Below, piece after piece: positions 10,762-35,764 of a stretch of 60,495 nt of DNA (positions are counted from its first letter, which is position 1; each line of letters begins with the position of its first letter). The stretch lies in assembly GCA_022510815.1 (NCBI GenBank), contig JAFLST010000016.1, positions 1-60,495 on the forward strand, written 5' to 3'. The stretch comes from Christensenellaceae bacterium. GTDB taxonomy: Bacteria; Bacillota; Clostridia; Christensenellales; Aristaeellaceae. Under the pieces are notes generated by a model, which had not been told where the DNA came from, ran no database searches, and saw only the letters and a list, made by a program, of their open reading frames with translations. Made by a program: the position numbers and the translations under genes.

Positions 10762-10767
10762 AAACCC

Positions 10768-11005
10768 ACACCGAAGACGAGCAAGGCGGCGCGAGAGGTT
10801 GTTCAAAGCGAGCGGGGGACGGTGAAAGCCCCGCAGCGGACGGCGCGTCCATGGCGCTCGGAGGGCGCGGGGGAACGGGCATGCGAGAGGCCCCAGTATC
10901 CCGTGACGGCTGGCCCCCGTGATCGGGCGAGAGTGGCGCACGCTGTGCGCAAGTGGGGTGGCACCGCAGTCATCTGTCCCCAGAGGACGGAGGGCTGTTT
11001 TTTTG
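10768..11005 (+). promoter_or_regulatory. T-box leader, tryptophan specific
   Basis: A canonical tRNA-sensing T-box. The stem I base pairs CGAGC (10778-10782) with GCTCG (10856-10860). The specifier UGG (10852-10854) precedes the 3' arm by one base, giving Trp. The conserved T-box AAGTGGGGTGGCACCGCAG is at 10951-10969; its UGGC (10959-10962) complements a GCCA acceptor end, as expected for tRNA-Trp with discriminator G73. The terminator stem TCTGTCC/GGACGGA (10973-10991) is followed by seven T (10998-11004). Uncharged tRNA-Trp should allow read-through into trpS. Confidence 0.93.
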
Positions 11006-33147: not shown

Positions 33148-33176
33148 TTGACACGTCTGCGCCGCTATGCTATCAT
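33148..33176 (+). promoter_or_regulatory. Promoter of the XRE-cupin/acyl-CoA synthetase operon
   Basis: Perfect -35 TTGACA (33148-33153), 17-nt spacer, -10 TATCAT (33171-33176), start near 33183. Confidence 0.8.
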
Positions 33177-33182
33177 ACACCC

Positions 33183-33457
33183 AATCAAATATCCACTGGA
33201 AATGCTCTGACGGAGACAAGCTCCCCGTCCCCTGCGCAAAGAGAGTCGGCGGTTGGTGCAAGCCGATGGCAGGCCGGGACAGCGCATCACTCCCGAGCAG
33301 CCGCCGTGAACAGGCCGGTTTCGGCCCCAGTAGCGGAGGACGGCGCCGCGTGATAGGCTTGGGCTTGTTGGAGCCGACAACAGCATCGTTCCGGAAGATG
33401 CACTCTGTTCCGCTATGCAAGCCCTGCGCCTCGGTATTTGAGGATGCAGGCTTTTTC
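33183..33457 (+). promoter_or_regulatory. T-box leader with apparent isoleucine (AUC) specifier
   Basis: Stem I is well formed: GGAG (33212-33215) pairs CTCC (33290-33293); GTCCC (33227-33231) pairs GGGAC (33276-33280); CTGC pairs GCAG; the AGAG bulge follows; TCGGC pairs GCCGA around the distal loop GGTTGGTGCAA. The specifier, one base before the 3' arm as in the trpS T-box, reads AUC (33286-33288) followed by A. The stem III-like block CAGTAGCGGAGGACGGCGCC also parallels the trpS leader. GGGCTTG (33361-33367) can pair CAAGCCC (33418-33424) as an antiterminator against the terminator AAGC(C)CTGCGCCTC/GAGG(A)TGCAGGCTT plus TTTT (33419-33456). The T-box bulge is non-canonical (TTGGAGCC instead of TGGTACC). 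Confidence 0.75.
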
Positions 33458-33492
33458 ATTGCCTGAAAAGGACAAACAATGGAGGGATCATT

Positions 33493-34062
33493 TTGAATCA
33501 GATTCAGCTCATCGCCATGCGCATTGCCGATCTGAGGGACATCAGCGGCATGACCGCGGAGCAGGTGGCGGAGAAATCCGGCGTGCCGCTGGAGGACTAT
33601 CTGGCCTACGAGACCGGCGAGAAGGACTTCTCCTTCTCCCACCTGTTCAACATCGCCGAGACCCTCGGCGTGGACATCTCCGACCTGCTGACCGGCGAGA
33701 GCCCCAAGCTGCGCGGCTATGTCCTCACCCGCTCCGGCAAGGGCCTCGCCTTCGACCGGCGCAAGCAGTATCACTATCAGCATCTGGCGTACAACTTCGC
33801 CCACAAGCTGGCCGAGCCCTTCATCGTGACCGTCGAGCAGGATCCGCCGGGCACCGTCAAGCAGGCCCACAGCCACGAGGGTCAGGAGTTTGACTATGTG
33901 CTCGAGGGCTACCTCAAGATCGTGCTGGGCGGCAACGAGCTGATGCTCTCCCCCGGCGACTCGATCTACTACGATTCCTCTCTGGCCCACGCCATGTACG
34001 CCGTGGAGGGCGACTGCCGATTCATCGCAGTGGTCGTCAAGAGCGGCGAGGCGCTGGAATAA
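33493..34062 (+). CDS. XRE-family regulator with C-terminal cupin
   Basis: The 189-residue protein has an N-terminal helix-turn-helix (ISGMTAEQVAEKSGVPLEDYLAYETG). A cupin follows at residues about 105-185, with the metal-binding pattern QAHSHEGQEFDYVLEG and the second motif SPGDSIYYDSSLAHAM. Such proteins usually sense a small acid and regulate the adjacent metabolic gene. It starts with TTG at 33493 behind GGAGGG. It is 22 nt upstream of the acyl-CoA synthetase and behind the T-box, so the regulator itself is under tRNA control. Confidence 0.88.
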   Translation: MNQIQLIAMRIADLRDISGMTAEQVAEKSGVPLEDYLAYETGEKDFSFSHLFNIAETLGVDISDLLTGESPKLRGYVLTRSGKGLAFDRRKQYHYQHLAYNFAHKLAEPFIVTVEQDPPGTVKQAHSHEGQEFDYVLEGYLKIVLGGNELMLSPGDSIYYDSSLAHAMYAVEGDCRFIAVVVKSGEALE

Positions 34063-34084
34063 TACGAAGAAATGAGGCAACGCC

Positions 34085-35764
34085 ATGCAGCCACTGTATC
34101 ATGAATATCTGGACGTGAAGGGCGACTTCATCAACTACGACGACTTCAACAAGAACTTCCGCCTGATCCGCCCGGCCTCCTTCAACTTCGCCTACGACGT
34201 GGTGGACCGGCTGGGCCGGGAGGACCCCGACCGCAAGGCGCTCCTGTGGACCAACCCCGAGGGCGACGTGGTGGAATACGACTTTGCCCGGATGATGCGC
34301 GACTCCAACAAGGCCGCCAACTACTTCAAGTCCCTCGGCGTGAAGAAGGGCGACGCGGTCATGGTCATCCTCAAGCGTCACCATGAATTCTGGCCGGTGA
34401 TCATCGCCCTGCACAAGATCGGCGCGGTGACCATCCCCGCCACTCACCTGCTGACCGCCAAGGACATCCGCTACCGGGTGCACGCGGCGGACGTGTCGGT
34501 CATCATCGCCACGGAGCACACCTCCGTCGTCTGCGACGCCATCGACGAGGCGGCCCCCGACTGCCCCACCCTCAGGCACCGGGTGCTCGTGCGCACCAAG
34601 CGCGAGGGCTGGGAGAGCTACGACGAGGGTTTCTCCGCCGCCAGCGATCAGTGGGAGGTGCCCACCGGCGATCAGTATCCCCAGAATGAGGACCTGATGC
34701 TGCTCTACTTCACCTCCGGCACCACCGGCATGCCCAAGATGGTCACGCACAATTACCTCTATCCTCTCGGCCATATCCTGACCGCGGTCTACTGGCTTCA
34801 GGTCGAGGACGGCGGGCTGCACCTGACCGTCTCGGAGACCGGCTGGGCCAAGTCCGTCTGGGGCAAGCTCTACGGCCAGTGGCTGGGCGGAAGCTGCGTG
34901 TTCGTTTACGACTTTGACAAGTTCAACGCCGCGGAGCTCCTCCGCATGATCGAGAAGTTCCACATCACCACCTACTGCTCGCCGCCCACCATGTACCGCT
35001 ACATGCTTCAGGAGGACTTCGCCAACTACGACCTGTCCAGCCTCAAGCACTGCTCCGTGGCGGGCGAGCCCCTGAACCCCGACATGGCCCACGAGTGGCA
35101 CAAGCGCACGGGCATCGAGCTGCGGGAGGCCTTCGGTCAGACCGAGCTGCTGGTGACGCTGGCGACCTTCCCGTGGATGGAGGTCAAGCCCGGCTCCATG
35201 GGCAAGCCCGCGCCGGTGTTCGACGTGGACCTGATCGACGGCGAGGGCAACCCCTGCCCGCCCGGCGTGTCCGGCGAGATCATCATCCGCACCCACCACG
35301 GCGCGCCCATCGGCATGTTCGCGGGCTACTACCGCGACCCGGAGATGACCAGCGACGTCTGGGACGGCAAAATCTACCACACCGGCGACGTGGCGTGGCG
35401 CGACGAGTGGGGCTACTACTGGTATGTGGGCCGCACCGACGACGTGATCAAGTCCTCGGGCTACCGCATCGGCCCGTTCGAGGTGGAGAGCGCGCTGGTG
35501 GAGCACCCCGCCGTCCTCGAGACCGCCATCACCGGCGTGCCTGATCCCCTGCGCGGTCAGGTGGTCAAGGCGACCATCGTTTTGAAGCCCGGCTGGGAGG
35601 GCACCGACGCGCTCAAGAAGGAGCTTCAGGACCACGTCAAGCACATGACCGCTCCCTACAAGTATCCCCGCGTGATCGAGTTCGTCGACGCGCTGCCCAA
35701 GACCATCTCCGGCAAGATCCGGCGCGTGGAGCTGCGGGAGAAGGACGCGGAGAAGACGAAGTAA
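34085..35764 (+). CDS. AMP-forming medium/branched-chain acyl-CoA synthetase
   Basis: The 559-residue ANL-superfamily enzyme makes acyl-CoA from a carboxylic acid, ATP and CoA. It has the P-loop LLYFTSGTTGMPKMV, AGEPLNP, the EAFGQTE aromatic motif, YHTGDVAWRDEWGYYWYVGRTDDVIKSSGYRIGP and the catalytic Lys in PKTISGKIRR. It resembles the medium-chain MACS group, including archaeal enzymes that I recall preferring 2-methylbutyrate, more than acetyl-CoA synthetase (no N-terminal ACAS_N domain, shorter length). The pairing with an XRE-cupin gene is common in anaerobes. The isoleucine-type T-box suggests the product feeds isoleucine synthesis. Confidence 0.9.
   Translation: MQPLYHEYLDVKGDFINYDDFNKNFRLIRPASFNFAYDVVDRLGREDPDRKALLWTNPEGDVVEYDFARMMRDSNKAANYFKSLGVKKGDAVMVILKRHHEFWPVIIALHKIGAVTIPATHLLTAKDIRYRVHAADVSVIIATEHTSVVCDAIDEAAPDCPTLRHRVLVRTKREGWESYDEGFSAASDQWEVPTGDQYPQNEDLMLLYFTSGTTGMPKMVTHNYLYPLGHILTAVYWLQVEDGGLHLTVSETGWAKSVWGKLYGQWLGGSCVFVYDFDKFNAAELLRMIEKFHITTYCSPPTMYRYMLQEDFANYDLSSLKHCSVAGEPLNPDMAHEWHKRTGIELREAFGQTELLVTLATFPWMEVKPGSMGKPAPVFDVDLIDGEGNPCPPGVSGEIIIRTHHGAPIGMFAGYYRDPEMTSDVWDGKIYHTGDVAWRDEWGYYWYVGRTDDVIKSSGYRIGPFEVESALVEHPAVLETAITGVPDPLRGQVVKATIVLKPGWEGTDALKKELQDHVKHMTAPYKYPRVIEFVDALPKTISGKIRRVELREKDAEKTK

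Follow-up and report, generated by a model that had tools for sequence, protein, structure and literature searches.

Anaerobes can form isoleucine from 2-methylbutyrate, a route described in older labelling work. In the case of Methanobrevibacter ruminantium, reductive carboxylation of this acid to isoleucine has been proposed from genome content (PMC2812497, accessible part). Among acyl-coenzyme A (acyl-CoA) synthetases, MacsMa of Methanosarcina acetivorans prefers 2-methylbutyrate, and the accessible part of the report on it provides a list of tested residues (PMC10455477). MbcS, an enzyme that serves the synthesis of branched-chain fatty acids in Staphylococcus aureus, has 2-methylbutyrate and isobutyrate as substrates for activation and acts poorly on butyrate and isovalerate (PMC10026030, accessible part). 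As regards T-boxes, the UGGN sequence is invariant next to helix A1 in every known representative, according to the accessible part of PMC7583486. Here we analyse a leader encoded in a 60,495-nucleotide (nt) stretch of contig JAFLST010000016.1 of a Christensenellaceae bacterium (assembly GCA_022510815.1), this whole stretch being referred to as the window. The T-box-homologous leader spans positions 33198-33456 and is followed by the genes of an XRE-cupin regulator and an acyl-CoA synthetase.

Results of our analysis incline us, by a modest measure, towards a remodelled isoleucine (Ile) T-box, in which a contact of UUGG with the tRNA CCA end and a GGGCUUG/CAAGCCC antiterminator would gate a 2-methylbutyrate-to-isoleucine operon. 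Homology and layout identify the window leader as a T-box, and it probably functions as such; it is not classed as a canonical T-box, because the defining UGGN feature is absent.

Our comparison comprises 14 distinct leaders, each located before an XRE-cupin/synthetase pair, namely that of the window and those of 13 among 79 loci from GTDB contigs. The remodelled leaders, referred to as the six, are those of the window and of loci L101 to L105; the other eight are canonical. The count of 13 may be low, because stem I was detected with a loose pattern and by eye. The window assembly (2.74 Mb, 77 contigs) is 95% complete, and the nearest GTDB-contig records by XRE-cupin identity are Clostridia metagenome-assembled genomes (MAGs), several of them from deer guts. 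Conservation among the six is given as mean pairwise identity, the yardsticks being the fourfold degenerate sites of the XRE gene (70%) and the sequence upstream of the promoter (37%).

T-box homology and the isoleucine specifier

The leader and its operon include the following elements:
33148-33176, + strand: sigma-70 type promoter (TTGACA, 17 nt, TATCAT, TG before the -10 element; 11 of 12 consensus bases)
33204-33298, + strand: T-box stem I with AGAGAG (33240-33245), the distal element GGUUGGUG (33251-33258) and the AUC specifier (33286-33288), from the Rfam alignment
33300-33338, + strand: stem II with the GAA/AGUA S-turn motif, from the Rfam alignment and leader comparison
33340-33358, + strand: stem IIA/B pseudoknot region (GCC...GGC), assigned by eye from relatives
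33360-33378, + strand: stem III block UGGGCUUGUUGGAGCCGAC, with GGGCUUG (33361-33367) as the proposed new antiterminator 5' strand and UUGG (33368-33371) as the proposed contact of the CCA end
33379-33417, + strand: variable hairpin region separating the stem III block from CAAGCCC
33418-33424, + strand: CAAGCCC, the proposed antiterminator 3' strand, which shares two bases with the terminator 5' arm
33423-33456, + strand: intrinsic terminator (CCUGC-CCUC/GAGG-GCAGG and U-run)
33493-34062, + strand: XRE-cupin regulator gene, 189 amino acids, TTG start (HTH_3 33.9 bits, Cupin_2 55.4 bits)
34085-35764, + strand: AMP-forming acyl-CoA synthetase gene (P0002), 559 amino acids, closest to 3etc (MacsMa) and MbcS

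The Rfam T-box model RF00230 aligned to positions 33198-33368 with 41.4 bits (E 6.3e-8 in a 421-base search and 9.9e-8 in the whole genome). This score lies below the gathering score of 93 bits, and the leader is not listed in the gathering-threshold search of the window. Four of the five close relatives scored 50.4 to 57 bits, also below gathering, and the leader of L105 gave no match at E 0.001. Canonical leaders before homologous gene pairs reached 87.7 to 104.3 bits in six of the seven loci scanned and 45.5 bits in the seventh, L145 (L179 was not among the seven). The lower scores of the remodelled leaders can be attributed to the missing UGGN bulge. All stem I features of RF00230 (specifier in an internal loop, AG bulge, distal loop) are present in the window leader, as are the stem II S-turn, stem IIA/B and stem III; stem III and the IIA/B pseudoknot were assigned by eye, the latter partly on the basis of common T-box anatomy.

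An original prediction, made from the sequence of this DNA, had described a perfect promoter, a complete stem I with AG bulge and distal loop, and a terminator. The motifs and the Rfam alignment bear out the stem I, and the terminator is present as an interrupted hairpin with a U-run in all six close sequences, although a simple terminator scan detected none in the window leader. The promoter is there as well, one consensus base short of perfection; shuffled sequences yield a mean of 0.2 such sites. The proposed check with the Rfam model returned a match, albeit one under the gathering score.

The specifier is AUC (Ile) in 14 of 14 leaders, the base before it being A, C, G or T and the base after it A or C. 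In the window genome, where 14 T-box matches were found at E 0.001, the same register reads correctly for metG (AUG), tyrS (UAC), an Asn-type T-box (AAC), leuS (CUC), pheS (UUC), trpS (UGG) and an Asp-type T-box (GAC), genes and register being read by eye. The serS and thrS T-boxes fit this register with one extra base and that of valS with two (by eye). A different register was rejected, since the seven T-boxes give the expected codon in the same one. The reading of AUC, deduced originally from the trpS T-box, is thereby upheld. No ileS was seen by eye behind any of the 14 matches of the window genome, so the assembly may contain no Ile T-box other than this leader. The Trp T-box (UGG) lies before trpS, identified by eye, at 10765-10984 (+ strand) of the window and scores 51.5 bits, under the Rfam gathering score.

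The absent UGGN bulge, stem III and the proposed antiterminator

The UGGN-RCC (UGGN-ACC) antiterminator bulge between helices A1 and A2 is absent in the window and in L101 to L105. UGGUACC with flanking antiterminator sequence occurs in eight of the 14 leaders and is missing in six. Within the window genome, UGGN followed by ACC (once AAC, in the case of serS) is found in 13 of the 14 T-box matches, the exception being the Ile leader. This absence had been overlooked in the original prediction. A search of the 609 bases that end at the XRE start revealed no displaced canonical antiterminator: the pattern TGGN[AG]CC occurs there only as the stem III TGGAGCC (L101, L102, L104 and L105), and L103 has one additional occurrence, inside stem I. 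The possibility that UGGAGCC is a plain T-box bulge was rejected, since L143 and L166 carry both UGGAGCC and UGGUACC; in these two leaders GGGCUUGUUGGAGCC is stem III, because the canonical antiterminator comes after it.

Elsewhere among the relatives, the hairpin of stem III is kept with strands of different sequence (by eye). Among the six, the stem III block is 98% identical, as compared with 70% at the fourfold sites of the XRE gene and 44% in the variable segment that follows. The exact sequence GGGCTTGTTGGAGCCGAC was found in six of 308 family genomes, namely that of the window and the five that gave the same leader. Identity amounts to 84% and 75% in stem I, 96% in the last 16 columns of stem IIA/B and 82% in CAAGCCC with the terminator, and to only 64% in stem II. 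A tandem GGCUUG repeat (GGCUUGGGCUUG) at positions 33356-33367 of the window, before the stem III loop, provides two registers for pairing with CAAGCC.

In stem III and the terminator, 78 of 78 alignment cells are paired among the six, with one compensatory pair and one G-U change. GGGCUUG/CAAGCCC forms seven pairs in five of the six close sequences and is rearranged in the sixth. The competing stem described originally is thus confirmed, but it differs from the usual T-box antiterminator. In a family-wide model of the new helix, 94 of 96 alignment cells pair. When the RNA is cut before the terminator 3' arm, the minimum free energy (MFE) structure holds AGGC/GCCU together with GGGC(UUG)/CAAGCCC in all six, with one mismatch in L105; z-scores range from -2.7 to -4.5, and 0 to 5 of 500 shuffled sequences are as stable. 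Inside these helices, (G)GAGC pairs with GCUU(U) in five sequences, and the window pairs UGGAGC with GUUCCG instead. An AGC/GCU pairing in the window (GCU at 33412-33414) was rejected, being part of the family-wide model and not of the window's own MFE structure.

In full-length folds forced into either form, stem III with terminator and the GGGC/GCCC form differ by 0.3 kcal/mol in L101 and L103; the terminator form is favoured by 3.0 kcal/mol in L104 and 8.9 kcal/mol in L102, and the GGGC/GCCC form by 3.3 kcal/mol in the window and 3.1 kcal/mol in L105. As a control, cut canonical relatives were folded, and UGGUACC was unpaired between helices in three of eight (L137, L145 and L166), and in L179 too in a longer form. 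The sole UGG remaining between stem I and the terminator is that of UUGGA in the stem III block. UUGG adjoins the new helix, is kept in all six inside the block of 98% identity and, as we infer, could pair with the tRNA CCA end.

The operon, its distribution and the proposed isoleucine pathway

The two genes named in the original prediction are confirmed as those of an XRE-cupin protein, with HTH_3 and Cupin_2 domains, and an acyl-CoA synthetase. The best PDB match of the synthetase is 3etc (692 bits; 289 of 544 aligned residues identical), which we take to be MacsMa of Methanosarcina acetivorans; 3etc has the residues reported for MacsMa at the expected positions. Seven of the eight MacsMa-tested residues taken from the accessible part of their source are identical in the window synthetase (Trp259, Gly459, Tyr460, Arg490, Lys519, Tyr525 and Tyr527), and Lys461 is replaced by Arg. 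The best NCBIfam match is MbcS (NF047394), with 473.5 bits, below the curated cut-off of 850. The membership of the window synthetase in the 2-methylbutyrate group is supported by sequence comparison.

The XRE-cupin gene precedes the synthetase gene in 29 of the 30 best family loci, that of the window included; the thirtieth, L033, starts inside the synthetase gene. Among these 29 loci, 28 have upstream sequence and eight have stem I. A leader of this type was found before orthologous pairs, a check proposed in the original prediction, at the 13 GTDB-contig loci, all with AUC. In a tree of 70 XRE-cupin proteins (six with remodelled T-boxes, six with canonical ones and 58 with none; the canonical L143 and L171 did not pass the filters and were left out), canonical T-boxes are scattered and the remodelled ones lie near each other, with two changes as compared with a shuffled mean of 5.8.

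The XRE-cupin/synthetase pair is also present in archaeal MAGs of Methanomassiliicoccaceae and Methanomethylophilaceae (L152, L163, L164, L168, L177 and L178). The archaeal XRE-cupin proteins sit among bacterial ones in the tree, and no T-box was recognised at these loci by the loose pattern. A NiCo riboswitch (L171:2091-2190, 78.8 bits) lies about 2 kb upstream of the L171 Ile T-box. The window also contains a raiA RNA (2018-2241, - strand; 178.7 bits, above gathering).

No match to ilvC was found in the 95%-complete window assembly. A Vor-type gene order (ferredoxin, VorB, beta subunit, gamma subunit) is present; only VorB exceeds its cut-off (572.6 vs. 399 bits), and it is a possible partner for reductive carboxylation. 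One class-IV aminotransferase is encoded as well. A tRNA-Ile-gated route from 2-methylbutyrate to isoleucine is, on this genomic evidence, plausible.

A further T-box of the window genome, on contig C34, is followed by a gene of a TIM-barrel (xylose-isomerase-like)/AMP-forming acyl-CoA ligase fusion (L182:4001-6700, - strand). This T-box carries a UACUGG block and reads CUG by register, a Leu-type parallel; UAC is also a possible reading, because the UACUGG block is constant in the leaders read. Upstream of the fusion gene, TGGTACCGCG is present in 11 of the 29 loci that include the gene start. The ligase part is of another type, its best match being a fatty acid CoA ligase model, below the cut-off of that model.

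Proposed mechanism, rival explanations and known systems

In the mechanism that we propose, uncharged tRNA-Ile would dock on stem I and its CCA end would contact UUGG in the stem III segment. This contact would open stem III and favour the conformer with GGGCUUG/CAAGCCC and AGGC/GCCU, which would remove the terminator pairs adjoining the U-run or, with AGGC/GCCU, more of the terminator 5' arm. With charged tRNA-Ile, stem III and the terminator would stay formed. The operon would make 2-methylbutyryl-CoA, which the Vor ferredoxin oxidoreductase could reductively carboxylate to 3-methyl-2-oxopentanoate, and transamination of the latter would yield isoleucine. The cupin protein may be a second control layer.

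Several results weigh against this mechanism. The new helix shows no covariation: 12 of its 16 pairs never vary and none is changed on both sides, so it is backed by conservation and not by covariation. When GGGC/GCCC is imposed on the full-length folds, the terminator hairpin persists in shortened form in all six; the idea that formation of the new helix abolishes the terminator was therefore rejected, and exclusion between terminator and antiterminator would be partial unless AGGC/GCCU also forms, for which AGGC would need to leave the presumed IIA/B pseudoknot. The unforced full-length MFE structure is that of stem III with terminator in four of the six, and the RNAalifold consensus pairs CAAGCC with the first of the two GGCUUG repeats, with stem III closed. 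UUGG is fully free in none of the six cut-RNA folds; it is wholly paired in L105 and in the window, where the UGG takes part in the pairing with GUUCCG, and partly paired in the others. In four family genomes the tRNA-Ile discriminator is A73, with which the A of UGGA would form a mismatch; these genomes belong to another genus (g26), a search for tRNA-Ile of the window's own clade having found none.

The proposed role of the operon also meets difficulties. A second XRE-cupin/synthetase pair of the window genome, on contig C10, scores 725 bits against 3etc, above the 692 of the window enzyme, and no T-box match is listed for it in the genome-wide Rfam search. The absence of ilvC does not track the T-box: ilvC is above cut-off in seven of 30 family genomes, that is, in two of nine with and five of 20 without a detected T-box, and not in the one whose upstream sequence is missing (G028). 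The expectation that genomes with the T-box would lack ilvC and the others have it was thus rejected. The tRNA-Ile-gated salvage advanced in the original prediction is supported in part, by the Ile specificity, the enzyme group, VorB and the lack of an ilvC match, and weakened by the paralogue and the ilvC pattern.

That the leader is no T-box and resembles one by chance has practically negligible probability and was rejected: the score is under Rfam gathering, but the genome-wide E is 9.9e-8, AUC is found in 14 of 14 leaders, and T-boxes, canonical ones among them, precede homologous pairs. Decay of the T-box, with the antiterminator lost, stem I a relic and expression dependent on the promoter, a leaky terminator and the cupin regulator, would fit the absence of the UGGN-RCC bulge, the new helix without covariation and the low identity of stem II. 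It is also consistent with the same-genus relative L106, where leader and terminator are deleted together and the promoter and a short 5' remnant stay (by eye). We nevertheless regard decay as unlikely, since identity among the six genomes amounts to 75 to 98% in the blocks of stem I, IIA/B, stem III and the terminator, as compared with 70% at fourfold sites and 37 to 53% in two spacers, and AUC is retained in all six. It is quite unlikely, in our judgement, that docking of stem I alone acts, for instance if it held the nascent transcript or hid stem III, so that abundance of tRNA-Ile and not its charging is read. The known charging sensor, the UGGN bulge with helices A1 and A2 (PMC7583486, accessible part), is gone with stem I intact, and UUGG is partly or wholly paired in predicted folds, as such docking would allow; the conservation of UUGG beside the new helix in the six argues against it.

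A further explanation concerns the enzyme: Ile charging may be sensed, and the synthetase may serve branched-chain fatty acid primers or the use of acids for energy, not isoleucine. The MbcS match (473.5 of 850 bits), MbcS feeding fatty acids in Staphylococcus aureus (PMC10026030, accessible part), and the two T-box genomes that do have ilvC point in this direction. AUC in all 14 leaders points instead to isoleucine supply, as do the Vor genes and the lack of an ilvC match in the window genome, and we consider this explanation rather unlikely.

The remodelled Ile T-box with the UUGG-CCA contact, if true, would control isoleucine salvage from 2-methylbutyrate. More broadly, the six may represent a T-box lineage without the UGGN sensor, in which stem III became the antiterminator and tRNA-Ile is sensed by the specifier together with a discriminator-blind UUGG-CCA contact, or by docking alone; this we put forward tentatively, stopping just short of favouring it. 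To our knowledge, this would be the first T-box found in nature to have its UGGN sensor replaced. Among the matches listed in a search of open-access literature by titles and abstract starts, with subscription papers outside its scope, there was no paper on a T-box without UGGN and none describing an acyl-CoA synthetase operon behind a T-box; the accessible part of an older survey (PMC2494555) contains no word beginning with CoA. A conserved leader without the bulge and with a frozen stem III would offer a natural test of which sensor parts are needed, and the AUC specifier provides an annotation-independent argument that a synthetase of the MacsMa/MbcS type supplies isoleucine in anaerobes.

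In comparison with MacsMa, the window enzyme is bacterial, is encoded in an operon with an XRE-cupin gene and has Arg in place of Lys461. It shares with MbcS of Staphylococcus aureus the type of branched-chain short acyl-CoA synthetase, MbcS serving fatty acid synthesis there. The pathway would involve the same reductive carboxylation of the acid to isoleucine as that proposed, in the accessible part of the source, for Methanobrevibacter ruminantium, to which the window adds a T-box-type leader before the gene of the activating enzyme. With class I transcriptional T-boxes (RF00230, Ile type) the leader has in common the stem I elements, AUC, the stem II S-turn, stem IIA/B, stem III and the terminator. 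It differs from them in having neither the UGGN-ACC bulge nor canonical helices A1 and A2, in a stem III whose sequence is frozen among the six, and in its target, an XRE-cupin/acyl-CoA synthetase operon.

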